From positions 1 through 64,000 of the forward strand of contig JAFDVY010000001.1 in assembly GCA_018268785.1 (NCBI GenBank): a stretch of 64,000 nt of DNA. Reading direction: 5' to 3'. This DNA is from Acidobacteriota bacterium (GTDB lineage Bacteria; Acidobacteriota; Terriglobia; Acidiferrales; UBA7541). The notes below the pieces were generated by a model. The model was not told the origin of the DNA. It did not search any database and was given only the letters and a program-made list of their open reading frames with translations. Each line of letters starts with the position of its first letter. Within the stretch, counting starts at the first letter, position 1. Made by a program: the position numbers and the translations under genes. This document shows, piece after piece, positions 51,919 to 61,482 of the stretch.

Positions 51919-54540
51919 CTAAAAGTGAAAACCAAGTTCGGCGGAATAGCTTCTTGGAGACACGAAGTGTGTTCCGCTGAAGGTGCTCAGAAAATTGTAG
52001 AGCGCCACCTTGTTGGTCAGATTGATCACCGTAAAGCGCAAACTCCATTTGTAGCGGTCGCCGTGGAAGAGATTGTCGTGGCCCACGGCAAGGTCAAATA
52101 GATTTCGCGGCGCGATGCGCGGCGGGTTTTTATCGTCATTTTCCGTGCCTTCTTCGGGAATGTTCACGCGCACGGCGCCGGTTCCGGTTGGGCTGGCTCC
52201 GCAACTCGAGGTGGCGTTGCTCAAGGGAGAAAAGAGGGAGGCAAAGATTCGCTGGCCGCTGGGTCCCGCGCAGAAGAGACCGATGGCGGCCTGCTGATCG
52301 CCGTTGAAAGCCAGCGCCGTGGCAAAATCGGGCACGGCGCCCGCGACGAGCCCACTGTCATAGCGCCAGTTGAAGCCGACCCAGGGGCCGCGCTTCCACG
52401 GTTGGTATTGCAGGTGTGAGGTTTGATTGAATTTTTCGTCGTGGTCGATGCGGAAGACGGAGCCGCTTTGGCCGACGGTCACGCCCAGCCCGCCGACTTG
52501 AGGCGGAAAGTAACGCGCGGCGACGCTGGACATCACGACAAGCGCAGTCAATCCGTGAAAATTCGGCATGCTCGCGCGAATTGCGTAACCCGGAATTTTA
52601 GAATTGTGCCAGACAATCGGAAATGTGATTGGCGTATTGCCCAGAACGCTGAAGTCGAAGGAATTGTGGGTGTATTTCCACAAATACTCGCCGTCAATGA
52701 CGAGATACTTGCCGAACGCCTGCTCGAATCCGGCGTGAAATTCATTGCGGAAGCCCGCAGGCGAATTTGCCGGAACACAGGGGATCAGCGCAGCGATTAC
52801 ATCCACGTTGCAGCCCGTTGTCGCCACGATGAGGTTCTCGTTGAATGGCGTTTCCATCGTACGCGCATAAGAAATGCGCAACACGGTGTTGGTCGGCTTG
52901 ATGTTGTAAGCAATGCCGAGCCGGGGCTGAAGTTCCGTGGCCGAGGAAAGGCCTCTATAGAAATCGCCGCGTAGACCGAGATTGAACGACCAATTTCCCT
53001 TTGTGATCGTGTCCTGCACGTAGAGCGCGAGTTCCTTCACGTCGGTATGGCCGCGAAACAGAAATTGGCTTCCACCGCGCGTCAAATCAATGGGAAGAAG
53101 CGTTGCGCACGGCGTTCCGGGAACGGCGGAATCCGTTGTGGAGTCGAAACACGGAGCGCCGCTGGCATCCGTCGTGGAAGGGAGCAGATTCGGATCGATG
53201 ATGCCAAACCGGTTGTTCTCCGTCAGGAAGGTCTGCTGATACACTGCGCCAGCTTTGACGTTATGAATCCCTTTCACCCAGGATAGATCGCCGCGGACGC
53301 CGGCGTTCGTCAGTTGGCGGTCCTGCGTAATCGTTTCTGAGTTGATCGGTCCCAGATCTGCGAACACGTTGTTGCTCGGATAGTAGTTGTATTGGTCGTG
53401 CCGCACGAAGCCGCCAAAGTTGAAGACGGCTGTCGGGCCAATCGTGTGCGTCCAGTTGGGGGCGATGTTGTACGAGCCTATTTGCGAGCGCTGGTCGGCA
53501 TCTCCGGCGGGATTTCCGTTGACCGCGCTCAAGTTGTCAAAAGTGTTCGGGGTCTGGAACCACGAGCGCGAATACTGAAGGTTCAGACGTAGCGTGTCCA
53601 TTTTGGTCAGGTTGTAGTCAACGCGATCGAAGAAATTTTCTTCATTTCCTTTGTCGTGAATCGCGACGAATTCTGGGGGATCAAGAAAGCGGCCGCTGTT
53701 CAATCCGCTCAACGAAACAAAATTCCCCCACTTCTCGCTGCCATAGGCCATGTTGAATCCGGCCGTGGACGTGCCAAAACTTCCGAACGATCCTGTCACC
53801 GCGCCGGTCGGAGTCGTTACGCCCATGCCAGATCGCGTCGTTACCTTGATCACCAGGCTGGTCTTGTCCCCAAATTCCGCCGGCGGGGCGCCGGAAATTA
53901 CTTCCAGCGACTGAATCGAGTCGGCGGGAATCTGATTGGAAAAGACTTTGCTCGTCTGATCGGTGACCATCTGCCCGTCGATCGAAAACGCCGTTTGTGC
54001 GTGATCGCCCAGCGCGTGCATGTTTCCGTTGGAATCGGCCGCAATACCCGGCGACACCAGGGTCACAAGAGATGTCGCGGAAGATGAAGCGCTCTCCAGC
54101 GGCATCTTGTCGAAAAGGCCGCGGTCGACGTCTGTGTGGAACGTAGAATCGTTTTCGACCAAATCCGTTCCGCTCGATTCCACGGTCACCGTCGTCGCGG
54201 CTGACGCGACCTTGAGCGTCACAACGATCGCGGAAGGAACGGCGGAGCGCACTTCCACGTCCATGCTCGTGGCTGCAAAACCCTCCGCTCTCGCCACGAG
54301 GTGATAAGGATTAAACGGGACATTCGCAAACCGGAATTTCCCGTCCGCGTCCGACGTCGTGCTTCGGTCATAATGGCTGACCGGGTTGTGAATTTCCACA
54401 GTGGCCCCGGGCACCGAGCCGCCGGTAGCGTCCGTGACTATTCCGTCCAAAATTCCTGAAGACTGCGCGCGAACCACTCCTGAAAACAGAATCACAAAAC
54501 CAAAACACACAACAACATGACGACTCAATCTCTTCAGCAT
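51919..54540 (-). CDS. TonB-dependent receptor with carboxypeptidase-regulatory-like domain
   Basis: The 873-residue protein has a signal peptide, then a CarboxypepD_reg-like beta-sandwich (ILDGIVTDATGGSVPGATVE, residues 30-110). A plug domain (SIDGQMVTDQTSKVFSNQIP, IQSLEVISGAPPAEFGDKTS) and a beta-barrel ending YSAELGFHF follow. It is the Oar-like type abundant in Acidobacteria. Such receptors take up large substrates or siderophores driven by TonB. GGAGGAA precedes ATG 54540. The metal-efflux operon lies divergently upstream, so a metal-complex substrate is possible but unproven. Confidence 0.92.
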   Translation of the reverse strand: MLKRLSRHVVVCFGFVILFSGVVRAQSSGILDGIVTDATGGSVPGATVEIHNPVSHYDRSTTSDADGKFRFANVPFNPYHLVARAEGFAATSMDVEVRSAVPSAIVVTLKVASAATTVTVESSGTDLVENDSTFHTDVDRGLFDKMPLESASSSATSLVTLVSPGIAADSNGNMHALGDHAQTAFSIDGQMVTDQTSKVFSNQIPADSIQSLEVISGAPPAEFGDKTSLVIKVTTRSGMGVTTPTGAVTGSFGSFGTSTAGFNMAYGSEKWGNFVSLSGLNSGRFLDPPEFVAIHDKGNEENFFDRVDYNLTKMDTLRLNLQYSRSWFQTPNTFDNLSAVNGNPAGDADQRSQIGSYNIAPNWTHTIGPTAVFNFGGFVRHDQYNYYPSNNVFADLGPINSETITQDRQLTNAGVRGDLSWVKGIHNVKAGAVYQQTFLTENNRFGIIDPNLLPSTTDASGAPCFDSTTDSAVPGTPCATLLPIDLTRGGSQFLFRGHTDVKELALYVQDTITKGNWSFNLGLRGDFYRGLSSATELQPRLGIAYNIKPTNTVLRISYARTMETPFNENLIVATTGCNVDVIAALIPCVPANSPAGFRNEFHAGFEQAFGKYLVIDGEYLWKYTHNSFDFSVLGNTPITFPIVWHNSKIPGYAIRASMPNFHGLTALVVMSSVAARYFPPQVGGLGVTVGQSGSVFRIDHDEKFNQTSHLQYQPWKRGPWVGFNWRYDSGLVAGAVPDFATALAFNGDQQAAIGLFCAGPSGQRIFASLFSPLSNATSSCGASPTGTGAVRVNIPEEGTENDDKNPPRIAPRNLFDLAVGHDNLFHGDRYKWSLRFTVINLTNKVALYNFLSTFSGTHFVSPRSYSAELGFHF

Positions 54541-54679
54541 GTTTCCTCCGTCCCGGATCGCCGGGATTTTCTCTAGGTGCGGATCAACGCCGCAGCAAAA
54601 TGTGCGGCTGCGCCAAAGCGACGTGCGTTTGCGAGCGCTTGGGCGGCGGAAACGATTTGGACTTCAGTATTGGAGGAGA

Positions 54680-54982
54680 TTAAGCGCGAGGAGGGGCGCG
54701 TCCTGCGTGATGAATCGAGAACGCTTCGCTGGGAACCGAATGAACAGGCTGCGACAGATACCACGAAACAAATTCGGGAGCGGGAACGGATGCCGCACCA
54801 GCCGCAGCCAGAGCCGGCATGTGCAACGCCTGGCAAACGTGGCAAGGAGTATCGCCACGGCCGTCTTTGTGCTCGTGGAGATTGGCGCCTCCAGCCGCAA
54901 AATAAAAAAGAGCGAGACAGGCCAGAAAGGCCAGCGCGCGCCGCGCGGTAATTTTGTCAAAAATGTGCTTTCCGAAAGTCAT
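54680..54982 (-). CDS. Small exported CxxC protein (DUF2946-like)
   Basis: The 100-residue protein has a hydrophobic N-terminal helix (ALAFLACLALFYFAAGG). CHVCQALHMP then gives a CxxC motif at residues 47-50, with a His near each side, and a C-terminal tail IHHAGRAPPRA follows. This layout resembles DUF2946-type proteins often found beside copper and heavy-metal genes. Binding of a metal by the CxxC/His motif is inferred. It is divergent from a similar small gene at 55135 and lies 140 bases upstream of the receptor on the same strand. Confidence 0.65.
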   Translation of the reverse strand: MTFGKHIFDKITARRALAFLACLALFYFAAGGANLHEHKDGRGDTPCHVCQALHMPALAAAGAASVPAPEFVSWYLSQPVHSVPSEAFSIHHAGRAPPRA

Positions 54983-55134
54983 TCCCGCTTCAGGTTACAC
55001 TACATCGTGCCCAATTAGACGTTCCCATTTGCACAACGGTTGCCAGCAAGAAAACTCCCCGCCGAATCGCTTGACCGCGGTAACCCTTATTGCATAACCT
55101 TCGTCTTAGGGTATATAGGCAGCCTTTGCCCAAG

Positions 55135-55410
55135 ATGTCTGCACGCGTTCACAAGCTAACGTTTGTAGCTCTTCTGCTCGCAGTTCTTTTCCTCGCGGCG
55201 CAGTTCCACCAGTGTGCCGATCTGAGCGCCAATTCGTCGTCTTCTCACATTTGCCCGATTTGCTCCGTGGCTGGGACGGTGGTTACGACTGCATCCCCTG
55301 TGATTTCTTTTGTTTCCACGGACACGCAATTCGCGGCACAGCCCGCTCCACGGGTCGTTTCGTCGCATATTCCGTACGCAGCTTCTCCTCGCGCCTCTCC
55401 TGCTCTGTAA
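55135..55410 (+). CDS. Small exported CxxC protein (DUF2946-like), second
   Basis: The 91-residue protein has a hydrophobic N-terminal helix (LTFVALLLAVLFLAAQFHQC) and then SSHICPICSVAG with CxxC. A Ser/Thr/Ala-rich tail ends SPRASPAL. Its plan parallels that of the protein at 54680-54982 although overall identity is low. ATG 55135 is chosen because the hydrophobic helix begins right after it; a TTGCAT/TATATA promoter-like pair lies upstream (about 55090-55117). It precedes the efflux operon by 76 bases and is probably co-transcribed with it. Confidence 0.65.
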   Translation: MSARVHKLTFVALLLAVLFLAAQFHQCADLSANSSSSHICPICSVAGTVVTTASPVISFVSTDTQFAAQPAPRVVSSHIPYAASPRASPAL

Positions 55411-55486
55411 TCTCTCACGCTCTCTGACCTGAGTCTGTCTCTTATTGTCTTTGCCGCCCGCGTTGCGGCTTTCGAGGAGTTTTTCA

Positions 55487-56824
55487 ATGAAGAAGTTTTT
55501 AGTGCCGGCTCTGGCCCTGCTGGCCATGAACGCTGGCGCCCTTGGTCAACAAACGTCGCAAAAGCCGCCAACGCCGGCGCCTCCTGGCGCTCCAGCGGCC
55601 GCAGCACCCATTCCCGTGACTCCAGCTAACGCTTCCGCCCACATCACTTTGGATGAGGCCATTCGCCTGGCCCTTCAGCACAATCATGCGCTGCAGGCCG
55701 TCCGCTCCACAATTCTCATCAGCCAGGCTGATGAGATCACCGCGAATCTGAGGCCGAACCCAACCATCTCCTGGGATTCGCAGTTCTTCCCGCTCTTCCA
55801 TCCCGATCAATTCAACAGCGACTATCTCGCCAATCAGGCCCAATTTGACCTCAACATTGGCTATCTCTTCGAGCGCGGCAAGAAACGCCAACACCGTTTG
55901 CAAGCAGCCAAGGCTGCGACGGCGGTTGTACGTTCACAGGAAACGGACAGCGAACGCCAGCTTGTCTTCAATGTCGCGCAGCAATTCATCGCAGTTCTTC
56001 TCGCGGAATCGACCCTCGATTTTGCGCAGAAGGATCTCGATAGCTTTCAGCAAACCGTTTCCATCAGCGAGTCACGCTTCAAGGCCGGCGACATGAGCGA
56101 AGGTGACTATCTGAAAATCAAGCTGCAGCTTCTGCAATTTCAAACCGACGTCTCCGCCGCCCAGCTCGCAAAAGTGCAAGCGCTTGCCGCGCTTCGCCAA
56201 TTGCTGGGCTTCGATTCGGTCCCCGACAACTATGCGTGCGATGGAGATCTGTCTTACGAAACTGTTCACGGCAACGTGGAAGATCTAAAGGCCCTGGCGC
56301 TCCGCAGCCGTCCCGACCTTACCGCAGCCATCCTCGGGGTAAGCGCTGCGCGCGACCAGGAATCTCTTGCAGAAGCGAACGGCAAACGCGATCTCGGCGT
56401 CAGCTTCAGCTACACGCACACGGCTGGCCAAAGCAGCGGCGCCCTTTTCTTCAACATGGAACTTCCGATTTTCGATCGCAACCAAGGCAACATCGCCCAT
56501 GCACGCTACGCCGTCACGCAGGCCCAGGAACAAGCCAGCGAATCCGCCGAGCAGGTGATGACGGACGTTACCGACGCGTTTGAAAATCTCAAGACCAACG
56601 GCAAGATTATTCAGCTCTATCAAGGCGGCTACGTCGATCAGGCAAAGCAATCGCGGGACATCAGCGAATACGCCTACAAGCGCGGCGCCGCGAGCTTGCT
56701 CGATTTTCTCGACGCGGAGCGCACCTATCGCGCCAATCAGCTCGCGTACCGCCAGGCTCTTGCCGGTTACATGGCGGCTGTCGAACAGATGCGCCAGGCC
56801 GTCGGAACAAGGAATCTCCCATGA
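55487..56824 (+). CDS. TolC-family outer-membrane efflux protein (CusC/CzcC-like)
   Basis: The 445-residue protein has a signal peptide (MKKFLVPALALLAMNAGALG). Two outer-membrane-efflux repeats follow: ITLDEAIRLALQHNHALQAV, SESRFKAGDMSEGDYLKIKL and YAYKRGAASLLDFLDAERTY, typical of TolC coiled-coil tunnels. It forms the outer channel for the adaptor and pump encoded downstream. GAGGAG precedes ATG 55487. The stop overlaps the adaptor start by four bases (ATGA). Confidence 0.93.
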   Translation: MKKFLVPALALLAMNAGALGQQTSQKPPTPAPPGAPAAAAPIPVTPANASAHITLDEAIRLALQHNHALQAVRSTILISQADEITANLRPNPTISWDSQFFPLFHPDQFNSDYLANQAQFDLNIGYLFERGKKRQHRLQAAKAATAVVRSQETDSERQLVFNVAQQFIAVLLAESTLDFAQKDLDSFQQTVSISESRFKAGDMSEGDYLKIKLQLLQFQTDVSAAQLAKVQALAALRQLLGFDSVPDNYACDGDLSYETVHGNVEDLKALALRSRPDLTAAILGVSAARDQESLAEANGKRDLGVSFSYTHTAGQSSGALFFNMELPIFDRNQGNIAHARYAVTQAQEQASESAEQVMTDVTDAFENLKTNGKIIQLYQGGYVDQAKQSRDISEYAYKRGAASLLDFLDAERTYRANQLAYRQALAGYMAAVEQMRQAVGTRNLP

Positions 56825-58035
56825 CCATGATGCCCAGACTTCGCAATCCAGCTCCCAGGAAACTTTTCATGCAAAAACTTTCTCTAAACAGGGGCGTACT
56901 CGCCGCCGCGTTGTTTCTCGCTTCGTGCGGAAACCCTCCCGGCTCAAACGAAGCCAAGATGACGTCCTACAACGGCACCGAATCCAAAGCCGACACCGCT
57001 GATCTTTTCTCTGTTCCGCAGGACCAGATGGCGCACGTCAAAATCTCAACCGTCGAGAAATCCAATTTTCCCCGTGTTTTGCGTTTCACGGGTTCCGTTG
57101 CGTACAACGCTTTCAAAACGACGCCAGTTTTCTCCCCGGTCGGCGGTCCGGTCCAGGAAATTCTGGTCACACCCGGCCAGGTCGTGAAAGCCGGCCAAGC
57201 TTTGCTGACGGTCTCGAGCCCGGACTACTCCACGGCACGATCCGCGTTCATCAAAGCGAAGAGCGTTTTCGCGCTTGCCGACAAGAACTACGAGCGAGCC
57301 AAAGATCTATACGAACACAAAGCCATCGCCGAACGTGATTTACAACAAGCTGAATCCGACCGCGCCGCAGCGCAGGCGGACATGGTCTCCAGCGCGGATG
57401 CTCTTCGCGCGGTTGGCATCAAGGATCCCGAGTCGGTGCTGAAAAACTCCGCGGTGAGCTCCGGAGCAACGCCGGTTCCCGCGCCCGTTGGCGGCGAGAT
57501 TACCGATCGTCTTGTCGGCCCCGGCCAGCTTCTGCAAGCCGGCGCCACGCAGTGCTTCACCATTTCCGACATGAGCACAGTCTGGGTTCTCATGAACGTC
57601 TATCAGAATGACCTCGCCTACGTTCACAACGGCGATTCCGTCGAAATCACCACAGACGCCTATCCCGGATCTTTCCACGGAACAGTTTCTTACATTGCTG
57701 CTGCGCTCGATCCAACGACGCGCACGCTGCAAGCGCGTATTGTCACGCAAAATCCCGGCGAGAAATTGAAGAACAACATGTATGTCACGGCTACGGTGCA
57801 AGCTGGAGCGGTCAAAGACGCGCTCACCGTTCCCGATTCCTCGGTACTTCGCGACACGGAGAATCAGACCTTCGTTTACGTCCTGCAAGACCAGAACAAA
57901 TTCGCGCGCCGGCTTGTTTCCATCACGGAGGGCGGCAACGGCCGCACCATTATCACCAGCGGCCTCAAGGAAGGCGAACGCGTCGCCGGCGATGGCGCAC
58001 TTTTTCTGCAATTCAAAAATTCTTTGCAGCGGTGA
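56821..58035 (+). CDS. RND efflux periplasmic adaptor (CusB/CzcB-like lipoprotein)
   Basis: The 404-residue protein has a lipoprotein-type signal (ALFLASCGNPPG). A split biotinyl/lipoyl domain (GGPVQEILVTPGQVVKAGQA, PVPAPVGGEITDRLVGPGQL), an alpha-hairpin (DKNYERAKDLYEHKAIAERD) and a beta-barrel domain follow. It links the inner-membrane pump to the outer channel. Unlike true CusB it shows no clear N-terminal methionine cluster for copper. It sits between the TolC-like and pump genes in one operon. Confidence 0.93.
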   Translation: MTMMPRLRNPAPRKLFMQKLSLNRGVLAAALFLASCGNPPGSNEAKMTSYNGTESKADTADLFSVPQDQMAHVKISTVEKSNFPRVLRFTGSVAYNAFKTTPVFSPVGGPVQEILVTPGQVVKAGQALLTVSSPDYSTARSAFIKAKSVFALADKNYERAKDLYEHKAIAERDLQQAESDRAAAQADMVSSADALRAVGIKDPESVLKNSAVSSGATPVPAPVGGEITDRLVGPGQLLQAGATQCFTISDMSTVWVLMNVYQNDLAYVHNGDSVEITTDAYPGSFHGTVSYIAAALDPTTRTLQARIVTQNPGEKLKNNMYVTATVQAGAVKDALTVPDSSVLRDTENQTFVYVLQDQNKFARRLVSITEGGNGRTIITSGLKEGERVAGDGALFLQFKNSLQR

Positions 58036-58061
58036 GGACGGCTGACCAGCCCAACTGACAA

Positions 58062-61000
58062 ATGATCCATCGCATCGTCGATTTCGCTCTTCGCCAGCGC
58101 TTCGTGATCCTTATGATCACGGTTCTGATCGTTTTTGCCGGCGCCTACTCGTTCCAGCAAATGCCGGTTGACGCGTATCCCGATCTCTCTCCGCCGATGG
58201 TCGAACTCATCACCCAATGGCCAGGCCATGCTTCCGAAGAAGTGGAGCGCCTTACCACCCTTCCGCTTGAACTTGCCATGAACGGGACGCCGCGCCTGAA
58301 GGTGATGCGTTCCATCTCGCTCTATGGACTTTCCGACATTCGTCTGACATTTGACGAAGGCGTCGATCCCTACTTTGCGCGGCAAGTCGTTTTCGAGCGC
58401 ATCGGGGATGCCACGCTGCCCTCAGGCGTCGCGCCCGGCATGGCGCCGCTGTTCAGCCCAAGCGGCCTCGTCTACCGCTACGTAATTGAAAGTCCCGATC
58501 GTTCGCCGATGGAATTGCACACGATGGAAGAATGGGTCATCGAGCGCGCCTATCGCAGCGTCCCGGGGGTCGCGGACGATTCCGGATTCGGCGGCCCGAC
58601 CATGGAGTATCACGTCCTGCTCGACCCGGTTAAGCTCTATAACTTTCACCTTCCCGTCACGCAAGTGTTGAACGCTCTACAAGCCAACAACTCGAACACT
58701 GGCGGCGGCTTTTACACGCAGGGCGGCCAGTTCTATTACGTGCGTGGGCTTGGCTTGATTAAAACGACGGATGACGTTGGCGAAGTTGTCGTTGGCAGCA
58801 ACAACGGCGCGCCGGTTCGCGTGAAAGATATCGGCCGAGTTGAGATTGGCCACCCGCCCCGCCTCGGCATTTACGGTTTCCAGGACGCGAAGAAAAATAA
58901 CGACGATGCCGTCGAAGGCGTCATCCTGATGCGCCGCGGCGAACAAACGCAAAACGTTCTCGAAGGAGTCGAGAAAAAGACCGAAGAGCTCAACAAGAGC
59001 ATCCTTCCGCCCGACGTAAAGATCCACCCTTTTTACGACCGTAGCGACCTCGTAAAAATCACCACCGACACCGTCGAATGGAATCTCATTCGTGGAATGA
59101 TTCTTGTTCTCATCGTCCTGATTTTTTTCCTGGTCAGCATTCGTGCCGCAATCATCACAGCCCTCACGATTCCACTCGCGCTGCTGTTTGCTTTTATTTT
59201 CCTGCATCAGACGGGCGAAGCGGCGAACCTGCTCTCGATCGGCGCCATCGACTTCGGCATCATCATTGACGGCACCATCGTCATGGTCGAAAACATCTAT
59301 CGCGAGCTAAGCCTCCGCCACGGCCAGGACTACAAGCTCAGCGAAGTCATCCTTCAGGCCGCCCGCGACGTGGACCGCCCCATTTTTTATTCCGTTGCTG
59401 TCATCATCGCAGGCTACTTGCCGATTTATGCGCTTACCGGACCGGCCGGAAAGCTTTTTCACCCCATGGCGGACACCATGGCCTTCGCGCTCATAGGGGC
59501 CCTCATTCTCACGCTGACGTTTGTTCCGGTTCTTGCGTCTTACCTTTTCAAAAACGGTGTCAAAGAAAAAGAAAATCGCATCTTCAATTGGATACGCGAC
59601 AACTACGCGGGCCGCCTCGATTGGTGCCTGGACCATCCGAAAACTACCGTCGCGGCCAGCGTTCTGATTTTCGGCGCCACTCTGCTTCTTGTCCCGCTCA
59701 TCGGAGGCGAATTTCTTCCGCACCTCGACGAAGGAGCCCTTTGGGTACGCGCTACGATGCCCTATACGATTTCCTTCGAAGACTCCGCGAAATTCGCCCC
59801 GCAGGTCCGCGACATTCTGGTCAAATATCCGATGGTTACCGTTGTCGGCTCCGAACTCGGCCGGCCCGACGACGGCACGGACCCTACCGGCTTTTTCAAT
59901 TGCGAGTTTTACGTCGGACTGAAGCCCTACGATGATCCAGCGTGGCGGAAGACCTCCGTTCACAATAAGGAAGAACTCACGCGGGATCTCGAGAAAAGGC
60001 TTGATGCCTATCCAGGCGTCATCTTCAACTTTACGCAGCCCGCGGAAGATGCCGTGGACGAGGCGCTCACAGGTCTAAAATCGGCGCTCGCTGTCAAAAT
60101 TTTTGGCGAGGACTTGAATGTTCTCGAGAAAAAAGCCGTGGAAATTCGCAACGTCCTCGACAAAACCCCCGGCTTCACCGAGCTTACGGTTGTTCGCGAA
60201 CTCGGCCAGCCCAGCCTTATCGTTGACGCCGATCGCGCAAAAATCGCCCGCTATGGCATCAACGTTTCAGATGTTCAGGCCGTCATCAACGCTGCTGTTG
60301 GTGGGCAGACCGCCACGCAAGTAATCCAGGGCGAAAAACTCTTCGATCTCGTTGTTCGCATGGAGCCGCAGTACCGCTCCAGCGCGAAACAGATCGGCGA
60401 TCTGCTCGTTCCCGCTCCGGCTGGACAGCAAATTCCGCTCAGTGAACTCTGCGATATTCACGAAGCCTCAGGAGCGTCTTTCATCTATCGCGAAAATAAT
60501 TCGCGCTACATTGGCATCCAGTTTTCTGTCACTGGCCGCGACCTGGAAGGCATCGTCAACGCCGGGCAAGCCGCCGTCGCGAAAAATGTCAAATTGCCGG
60601 AAGGGTATCGTCTCGATTGGGGCGGCGAATATAGCGAGCTGCTTGAAGCGAAATCGCAGCTTTATGTCATCGGTCCGCTCGCAATTTTACTGATTTTCCT
60701 GATTCTTTTTGCGCTTTACGGCAACTTCAAATTTCCCGTCACCATCGCGCTTGGAGTCATCCTCACCGAACCGGTCGGCGCATTCATCGCGCTCAAACTC
60801 ACGCATACCCCGCTCAGTGTTTCCAGCGGCCTCGGGCTGCTCGCCCTGCTCGGCGTTAGCGTCGAAACCGCCGTCATTCTGGTCAGCTACATCAATAAGC
60901 TCCGCAACGAAGGCAAGTCCATCCGCGATGCCACGCGAGAAGCCTCGCTATTGCGTCTTCGCCCGATCATGATGACCGCTCTCGTCGCGTGCCTCGGCTT

Positions 61001-61160
61001 GCTGCCCGCCGCAATGTCCACTGGTGTTGGCAGCGACACGCAAAAACCATTTGCTATCGTAGTTGTGGCTGGCTTGCTCTCGCGCTTGTTCCTCGGATTC
61101 TTCGTCAATCCAGTTTTGTACGAAGTAGTTGCCCGCGAAGGCGACGTCCTTCAAGTCTGA
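58062..61160 (+). CDS. Heavy-metal RND efflux pump (CusA/CzcA family)
   Basis: The 1032-residue protein has twelve membrane segments, two large periplasmic loops and the heavy-metal-efflux signature SIGAIDFGIIIDGTIVMVEN in helix four, with the proton-relay aspartates. Other RND motifs are DAYPDLSPPMVELITQWPGH, GEFLPHLDEGALWVRATMP and LLALLGVSVETAVILVSYIN. It exports cations such as Cu, Ag, Zn, Co or Cd using protons; which one is not readable. It is the last gene of the operon 26 bases after the adaptor. Confidence 0.95.
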   Translation: MIHRIVDFALRQRFVILMITVLIVFAGAYSFQQMPVDAYPDLSPPMVELITQWPGHASEEVERLTTLPLELAMNGTPRLKVMRSISLYGLSDIRLTFDEGVDPYFARQVVFERIGDATLPSGVAPGMAPLFSPSGLVYRYVIESPDRSPMELHTMEEWVIERAYRSVPGVADDSGFGGPTMEYHVLLDPVKLYNFHLPVTQVLNALQANNSNTGGGFYTQGGQFYYVRGLGLIKTTDDVGEVVVGSNNGAPVRVKDIGRVEIGHPPRLGIYGFQDAKKNNDDAVEGVILMRRGEQTQNVLEGVEKKTEELNKSILPPDVKIHPFYDRSDLVKITTDTVEWNLIRGMILVLIVLIFFLVSIRAAIITALTIPLALLFAFIFLHQTGEAANLLSIGAIDFGIIIDGTIVMVENIYRELSLRHGQDYKLSEVILQAARDVDRPIFYSVAVIIAGYLPIYALTGPAGKLFHPMADTMAFALIGALILTLTFVPVLASYLFKNGVKEKENRIFNWIRDNYAGRLDWCLDHPKTTVAASVLIFGATLLLVPLIGGEFLPHLDEGALWVRATMPYTISFEDSAKFAPQVRDILVKYPMVTVVGSELGRPDDGTDPTGFFNCEFYVGLKPYDDPAWRKTSVHNKEELTRDLEKRLDAYPGVIFNFTQPAEDAVDEALTGLKSALAVKIFGEDLNVLEKKAVEIRNVLDKTPGFTELTVVRELGQPSLIVDADRAKIARYGINVSDVQAVINAAVGGQTATQVIQGEKLFDLVVRMEPQYRSSAKQIGDLLVPAPAGQQIPLSELCDIHEASGASFIYRENNSRYIGIQFSVTGRDLEGIVNAGQAAVAKNVKLPEGYRLDWGGEYSELLEAKSQLYVIGPLAILLIFLILFALYGNFKFPVTIALGVILTEPVGAFIALKLTHTPLSVSSGLGLLALLGVSVETAVILVSYINKLRNEGKSIRDATREASLLRLRPIMMTALVACLGLLPAAMSTGVGSDTQKPFAIVVVAGLLSRLFLGFFVNPVLYEVVAREGDVLQV

Positions 61161-61233: not shown

Positions 61234-61482
61234 ATGTCTGAACCGACTTACGAAGAACTCAAAGCCCGCTTGGCTCAGCTCGAAAAGGAAAAAGGCGGCA
61301 AGCGCAGCGGCGCGCTCGATTTTCGCGTTGGTGAAAAAGGCGGAGTCAGCGTTTACGGTCTCGGCCGCTTCCCGGTTACTCTCTATTACGAACAATGGGT
61401 GCGTTTGCTCGATGTCTCCAAAGACCTGCGCGAATTCCTGGAAGAAAATAAATCAGCGGGCAAACTGAAATTGAAGGAATAG
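61234..61482 (+). CDS. Small conserved-looking protein of unknown function
   Basis: The 82-residue protein begins with a coiled-coil helix (EELKARLAQLEKEKGG, residues 6-21). GALDFRVGEKGGVSVYGLGR and FPVTLYYEQWVRLLDVSKDL, then a charged end, follow. No membrane segment is seen. The plan, a short coiled coil plus a compact domain with YGLGRFPVTLY, is seen in small bacterial proteins of unknown role. GAGGTG precedes the ATG. It lies alone between the efflux operon and the convergent glycosidase gene. Confidence 0.8.
   Translation: MSEPTYEELKARLAQLEKEKGGKRSGALDFRVGEKGGVSVYGLGRFPVTLYYEQWVRLLDVSKDLREFLEENKSAGKLKLKE

Follow-up and report, generated by a model that had tools for sequence, protein, structure and literature searches.

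How are an efflux operon and a TonB-dependent receptor gene controlled when they diverge from one short region, each behind a small exported CxxC protein, with no regulator gene beside them? This question is raised by a locus of a soil acidobacterium (4.24 Mb assembly, 316 contigs). The window, that is the whole stretch of DNA analysed, comprises 64,000 nucleotides of contig JAFDVY010000001.1. A preliminary description, made from the sequence alone, took the two small open reading frames (ORFs), here ORF A and ORF B, for periplasmic metal sensors or chaperones. We conclude that they are very probably cis-acting upstream ORFs (uORFs) of the CruR/CutF kind. The genes next to them would be their targets, and metal binding at the CxxC would set ribosome arrest. 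What was computed here comprises the two ORFs with their motif and spacing, the evidence that they are coding and homologous to each other, their neighbourhood, and the predicted RNA pairing on the pump side.

Two uORFs of one family

The two small exported CxxC ORFs, the receptor gene and the three pump genes were all confirmed. uORF A (54680..54982, minus strand, 100 aa) leads the receptor gene. It has an export helix, the CxxC (CHVC, 54833..54844, minus strand), histidines at 35, 37, 48 and 54, and the C-terminal end HHAGRAPPRA, in which RAPP is followed by Arg-Ala-stop. uORF B (55135..55410, plus strand, 91 aa) leads the pump operon. It has an export helix, CPIC (55252..55263, plus strand) and the end SPRASPAL, in which RASP is followed by Ala-Leu-stop. 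Both CxxC positions were read from the sequence. The ORF list started uORF B at an upstream TTG (55090); we set its start at ATG 55135, from which several relatives align. The two uORFs are divergent, with 152 bp from ATG to ATG.

The RAPP codons of uORF A (CGC GCC CCT CCT, 54689..54700, minus strand) lie 44 residues past the CxxC. The RASP codons of uORF B (CGC GCC TCT CCT, 55390..55401, plus strand) lie 42 residues past it. For comparison we used portions of the published text of the papers cited. CruR (bp2923, DUF2946) of Bordetella pertussis controls a TonB receptor, and its distance from CXXC to RAPP is 45; this distance is kept within one or two residues, and five extra residues impair control (PMC9426467). 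uORF B is thus three residues under CruR. In vitro, the ribosome stalls on the RAPP of CruR, the P site then apparently holding motif residue three and the A site residue four (PMC12992588). The CXXC of CruR-type uORFs is present in both window ORFs, and the C-terminal RAPP is present in ORF A, with RASP in its place in ORF B. CutF, assigned to DUF2946, controls a multicopper oxidase; the CutF-like filter, Pro-Pro in the last 15 residues, is passed by ORF A and failed by ORF B (PMC9973294). RASP appears only in a list of motifs of SecM-clustered uORFs, and a stall motif with Ser in third position has been reported (PMC10987492).

Conservation of the uORFs

We compared the best 80 of 193 pump relatives, which carry Acidobacteria-type names (Acidobacteria, Terriglobia, Acidiferrales and so on). 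Nine of these loci (numbered with L below) were dropped for lack of a usable TolC start or for less than 600 nt upstream, leaving 71 and the window, 72 in all. TolC starts were chosen automatically and are uncertain for some genes. The receptor gene was testable in 20 of the 80 loci, or 21 with the window. A loose filter required a CxxC, a tail of 44-58 aa, and R or K..P within the last ten residues.

The neighbourhood, whose lack of conservation would have counted against the preliminary description by its own terms, proved conserved. With the window included, a uORF passing the filter stands ahead of TolC in 51 of 72 pump operons and ahead of the receptor gene in 19 of 21; the receptors of L010 and L013 have none. 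Under a relaxed filter, two more of the 72 pump operons have a uORF with the motif farther from its end. CxxC is invariant in the 51 pump-side and 19 receptor-side uORFs, both sets having been selected for it. The spacing from CxxC to Arg is 42-45 in 70/70, where the filter permits tails of 44-58. The motif is RAPP in 53 uORFs, RPPP in 12, RGPP in 2, RASP in 2 and RSPP in 1, and RASP occurs in 2/51 on the pump side. This arrest-type motif lies 1-6 residues from the stop in all 70. By a hydropathy criterion for a predicted export segment, a hydrophobic 13-mer (mean Kyte-Doolittle value at least 1.9) precedes the CxxC in all 70 as well.

The filter was selective. In the 80 related loci 83 of the 3200 ORFs sized 80-160 aa passed it, 68 of them being the uORFs above; four of the remaining 15 meet the strict motif and resemble further uORFs. 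In a reversed-sequence control, 5/2421 passed the loose filter and 0/2421 had the strict motif. Differences by codon position were 148/103/251 on the pump side and 129/89/256 on the receptor side over 12 pairwise comparisons, some of which share sequence; the third position was in excess in 12/12. Since the differences peak at the third position, the uORFs appear to be selected as proteins.

A pump-side uORF profile built without ORF A detected ORF A in the genome at 1e-12, and as judged from their sequences ORF A and ORF B are homologous members of one family. Two further matches in the genome were weak (contig C294, E 0.0017; contig C199, E 0.0033), and the one on C294, with a stop inside, was judged not to be a uORF. 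The DUF2946 domain was found at E<=0.01 in 11/51 pump-side and 10/19 receptor-side members. A search of the whole genome for DUF2946 gave no match above the Pfam cut-off.

At E<=1e-5 the pump-side profile matched 68 genomes out of 297 from Acidobacteriota, the source genome included, which cover 42 of 167 genera. From this second search 29 loci were taken, and 26 have an ORF with the strict motif. None of these uORFs is more than 90% identical to the first set, the highest value being 59%. The gene behind the ORF was resolved in 20/29: a receptor 49-61% identical to that of the window in 17, a weakly similar protein in two and TolC in one. In this count the loose filter had chosen, for L109 and L114, an ORF different from the profile match. 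Longer stretches were taken from four genomes. L134 has the order uORF-TolC-CusB-CusA-uORF-receptor, L135 and L136 have uORF-receptor with no pump nearby, and genome G206 adds one more divergent uORF pair (L132). G206, a distant acidobacterium, has six profile matches (L132:4107-4745, L133:3858-5680), among them this pair and two copies whose ends are nearly identical.

Predicted RNA structure of the leaders

uORF B ends 76 nt before TolC. In the predicted fold of the window, CTCCT (55397-55401, plus strand), formed by the Ser-Pro codons of RASP, pairs with AGGAG of the TolC Shine-Dalgarno sequence (SD; GAGGAG, 55474..55479, plus strand). The mean pairing probability is 0.92, vs 0.07 for synonymous variants of the uORF end. 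A hairpin with compensatory changes among relatives lies immediately 5' of this SD (55453..55469, plus strand).

The pairing was surveyed in 57 of the 70 leaders, those with a clear SD and a gap of 20-160 nt. Natural tails pair with the SD at 0.361 vs 0.197 for synonymous tails (p 0.0025), and the SD is less open (p 9.4e-06). The 26 non-redundant leaders gave 0.518 vs 0.306 (p 0.0011), again with a less open SD (p 0.0003). Tails also complement SDs better than other uORF parts do (14.12 vs 12.31). In ten pump leaders (the window and nine clade relatives), 95.0% of cells are paired in the helix of arrest codons and SD, and 81.7% in the hairpin 5' of the SD, where four pairs are changed on both sides. 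The whole structure is 88.3% paired; 0/500 shuffles reach this value, and the best slid control gave 52.5%.

Two candidate rules were rejected. Locus-specific co-evolution of SD and uORF tail gained no support from permutation. CCT at the first Pro was found in 43/68 of the first set (19/33 Pro codons after thinning) and was dropped as a general rule when the second set gave p 0.14.

A separate hairpin was seen in a sister clade. In alignment A4, the pump leaders of L020, L021, L031, L034, L036, L041, L044, L053, L062, L066 and L084 have a mid-leader hairpin, GTGCCG..CGGCAC. Its three doubly changed pairs were matched in 108/500 shuffles of these eleven leaders, and its covariation score in 0/500.

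The leader between uORF A and the receptor gene (54541..54679, minus strand) is 139 nt long, has C>G in its first part and contains the receptor SD GGAGG (54545-54549, minus strand). For the receptor leaders, the window clade (five sequences) yielded a consensus structure that includes a hairpin in mid-leader, and a ten-sequence set yielded none. Around the uORF stop there is more C than G in 51/51 pump, 19/19 receptor and 26/26 second-set leaders. In the 60 nt past the stop the C excess is 0.089 and 0.096, vs -0.015 to 0.013 after TolC, CusB and CusA; the bias is seen in 76% of the 51 and 89% of the 19 leaders. Such a C-rich stretch would fit a possible Rho site.

From 54450 to 55600 we found 0 sigma-70-type promoters and three terminator-like sites, vs 1.5 in shuffles; there was no Rfam match at E<=1 in 54400-55600. 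Upstream of uORF B, a conserved block (55070-55109) is common to the window, L005, L007 and L011. It starts with CTTGACC, ends with TTCGTCTTA (TCCGTCTTA in L005) and is possibly the promoter of uORF B.

Regulator genes near the locus

As the preliminary description had stated, no regulator gene was found nearby, the scan covering five flanking ORFs and 61234-61482 of the window. This absence would be explained if the small ORFs themselves act as cis regulators. In 4/80 related loci a gene for an FrmR/RcnR-type repressor lies near the uORF. It is adjacent in L005, L006 and L066 and about 1.1 kb off in L012, so that some relatives may have a transcriptional layer. These genes are at L005:6739-7017 (minus strand; a Trns_repr_metal match), L006 7033-6758, L012 5876-5601 and L066 15421-15146, and the one in L005 sits between its two divergent uORFs.

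Two CsoR/FrmR-type genes were listed in the source genome, neither within the window and one beside a second heavy-metal resistance-nodulation-division (RND) pump. That pump (contig C13:378-4951; L094, L096) is 41% identical, has a ZneA-like motif and lies near an FrmR/RcnR-type gene. The uORF profile has no match on contig C13.

The pump, the receptor and the metal

The pump operon encodes a TolC-type outer membrane efflux protein (OEP; 55487..56824, plus strand, from ATG 55487), a CusB/CzcB-type adaptor (56821..58035, plus strand) and a CusA/CzcA-family RND pump (58062..61160, plus strand). The earlier label "CusA-like" holds for the pump at family level, with 885.7 bits against TIGR00914 (cut-off 701.45). 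Among solved structures, however, ZneA is nearest, at 738.8 bits vs 487.4 for CusA. The stretch in transmembrane helix 4 reads DFGIIIDG in the window and DFGIIVDG in ZneA; across 81 pumps its eight commonest forms (65 pumps) are all DFG...DGT. Aligned with CusA, the window pump has V, N and E where CusA has Met573, Met623 and Met672, which we take to be the methionine triad of that Cu(I)/Ag(I) pump; the window pump thus lacks this triad. At the columns of ZneA E599, D602 and E610 (numbering from the alignment), presumably the zinc-binding residues, it has D, D and E.

The receptor led by uORF A (51919..54540, minus strand) has an N-terminal CarboxypepD_reg domain (3.3e-17) and a Plug match below cut-off. 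It has no sequence match among solved structures at E<=0.01. Its 21 orthologues keep nine His and three Cys at 85% or more, and no Met.

The similarity of the pump to ZneA, the helix 4 forms, the replaced methionines, the residues kept in the receptors and the FrmR/RcnR-type repressors near four uORFs all speak for a divalent metal (Zn, Co, Ni or Cd) as the signal instead of copper. On the other side, a Cys adjoins the Met623 column in the window pump, and the characterised relatives CruR and CutF are copper-responsive (PMC9426467, PMC9973294). We give a divalent metal about an even chance of being the signal.

Apparent interchange of receptor-side and pump-side copies

When the 70 peptides are placed on a tree and labelled as pump-side or receptor-side, the labels require 9 changes, of which at least five are forced by well supported branches. 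In L030 the receptor-side and pump-side copies are sisters. The tree has 100 columns, 32 of its 67 inner branches are open and its bootstrap is not settled. As read from these sequences, one sensor lineage seems to have come to stand ahead of both targets on several occasions, which suggests one shared signal for both copies.

Since the copies interchange on the tree, a common signal with control of the same sign is a live alternative. Receptor and pump would then be turned on together, for example in a cycle of metal or metallophore, in place of uptake off and efflux on. In the receptor leaders of L049 and L078, the 3' end of the uORF is perfectly complementary over ten bases to the receptor SD, which also favours control of the same sign. 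However, the two leaders of the window clade are unlike in sequence and in SD pairing as predicted, and their gaps are 139 and 76 nt. The pump gap is 76-85 nt and the receptor gap 125-139 nt in L005, L007, L011, L012 and the window; the order is reversed in L030, L049 and L078 (pump 90-113, receptor 49-59). CruR and CutF are also reported to be opposite in sign within one family (PMC9973294), and the tree has the limits given above. We rate control of the same sign somewhat below an even chance.

Discussion

The cis-acting reading of uORF A and uORF B would work as follows. Each uORF would be translated toward the Sec export machinery. Metal at the CxxC, with nearby His or Cys, would alter the strength of ribosome arrest at the RAPP located 44 residues on in A, or at the RASP 42 residues on in B. 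The state of arrest would set the expression of the next gene, and the finished peptide would probably be disposable. For the binding of metal to the nascent CxxC, the arrest, and the rule that a stalled ribosome turns the downstream gene on, we reason by analogy from CruR and CutF. The involvement of Rho and the sign of the response are likewise inferred.

On the pump side control would be translational. Since the predicted fold joins the arrest codons to the TolC SD, a ribosome parked on these codons would uncover that SD, and stalling would turn the pump on, as in CutF. On the receptor side of the window clade no SD pairing is predicted. The long C-rich leader there fits a Rho-sensitive gap like that of CruR, and stalling would turn the receptor on. 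Supposing that the pump serves detoxification and the receptor uptake, metal would be expected to make arrest on B firmer, the CutF pattern, and to release arrest on A, the CruR pattern.

Several results weigh against this reading. Both window ORFs miss the DUF2946 (PF11162) gathering cut-off of 23.7 bits (15.5 and 8.8 bits; E 0.031 and 3.6), and in the search of the whole genome ORF B ranked fourth (E 1.85) with ORF A not listed. ORF B carries RASP instead of RAPP, and 19/72 pump operons have no such ORF even under the relaxed filter. In the leaders, pairing of the ORF A tail with the receptor SD is 0.00, and natural tails exceed synonymous ones in just 32/57. The helix of arrest codons and SD has no pair changed on both sides, and the counts for the pump-leader structure are favoured because the structure was derived from the alignment on which it was counted. 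Complementarity of SD and tail is not locus-specific (14.12 vs 14.04 with partners permuted), the CCT excess is not significant in the second set (7/26 vs 19/137), and C>G at the uORF stop is partly forced by the RAPP codons.

The preliminary description proposed that both ORFs are mature periplasmic metal-binding proteins, chaperones or sensors, handing metal to the pump or receptor. Their export segment and conserved CxxC with His agree with this proposal, and a chaperone role was the earliest conjecture for CutF itself (recounted in PMC9426467). Still, what is conserved besides these is an arrest-type motif, located at the extreme C-terminus, at a fixed distance from the CxxC and 1-6 residues before the stop in 70/70. 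The uORFs lie 5' of the gene they would control, on the same strand, and synonymous codon choice at the uORF end affects the predicted state of the downstream SD. These three features are why we consider a periplasmic role probably wrong and prefer cis-acting leader peptides. In addition, the portions of the published accounts used here report no activity in trans for CruR, which was undetected by proteomics (PMC9426467), and no action in trans for CutF, which was undetected in cells (PMC9973294). We therefore regard action as periplasmic proteins as improbable, while the sensor-like nature of the two ORFs, their belonging together and the link they make between the receptor and a metal pump stand. 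Their shortness and scores below the Pfam cut-off might suggest gene remnants or ORFs that arose by chance in the two leaders, but this is already refuted by the frame, motif and spacing kept over 70 leaders and by the third-position excess in every comparison.

uORF A is most like CruR. Both have an export signal, CXXC and C-terminal RAPP (spacing 44 here, 45 in CruR), and both lead a TonB-dependent receptor gene across a long gap (139 nt here, 162 nt for CruR; PMC9426467). Unlike at the CruR locus, the receptor here has a CarboxypepD_reg domain, the uORF scores below the Pfam cut-off, and a second uORF of the same family faces uORF A and leads a pump.

The window ORFs share an export signal and a C-terminal Pro motif with Rhodobacter capsulatus CutF and its CutF-like counterparts, Pro-Pro being present in ORF A alone. 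Masking of the downstream SD by RNA structure, as in CutF, is predicted for uORF B. OEP genes are the commonest neighbours of CutF-like genes and most gaps are below 100 nt (PMC9973294), in keeping with the TolC gene and 76-nt gap of uORF B. Translation of CutF unfolds a stem-loop that masks an SD (PMC9973294). The anti-SD of CutF lies in an intergenic stem-loop and its metal motif is CxxxC (PMC9973294), whereas the predicted anti-SD here is the arrest codons themselves and the putative metal motif is CxxC; ORF B ends in RASP with no Pro-Pro. CzcI, upstream of czcCBA in Cupriavidus metallidurans, resembles uORF B as a small CutF-like protein before a CzcA-type pump, but is without a C-terminal proline motif (cited in PMC9973294).

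The RAPP/RGPP arrest-peptide uORFs and SecM, ApdA and ApdP are likewise small, exported and RAPP-like at the C-terminus, and lie 5' of the gene they control; TonB-related uORFs of this type are reported across Gram-negative bacteria (PMC10987492, PMC12992588). The present locus differs from these in that a putative sensor with cysteines faces two targets from a single divergent region, and the portions of the two papers used here describe no Acidobacteriota locus that we could find. Neither the CruR paper (PMC9426467) nor the CutF paper (PMC9973294) has the words "divergent" or "Acidobacter" in its main text. In the open-licence PubMed Central papers examined we found no description of a receptor-and-pump uORF pair, and, by title or start of abstract, none of DUF2946 in Acidobacteriota and no work on this locus. 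The uORF class and its TonB-receptor and OEP neighbours are already published; the paired receptor/pump variant appears new.

A bolder proposal joins these parts. One interchangeable arrest-peptide metal sensor would stand before an uptake receptor and an efflux pump in Acidobacteriota, would have been swapped repeatedly between them, and would read Zn, Ni or Co and not copper, with the pump-side arrest codons doubling as anti-Shine-Dalgarno. We hold the whole of it only tentatively, as rather unlikely to be right in every part. If true, a peptide code and an RNA code overlap in the same four codons.

As to where the regulator is, the small ORFs are most likely themselves the regulators. Small exported CxxC ORFs before metal genes should accordingly not be annotated as chaperones untried. 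The comparison extends cysteine-bearing leaders of the arrest-peptide type to many Acidobacteriota. In this family the window offers a natural pair from one divergent region, so that a single system would serve to test how a nascent peptide gives a metal response its sign.

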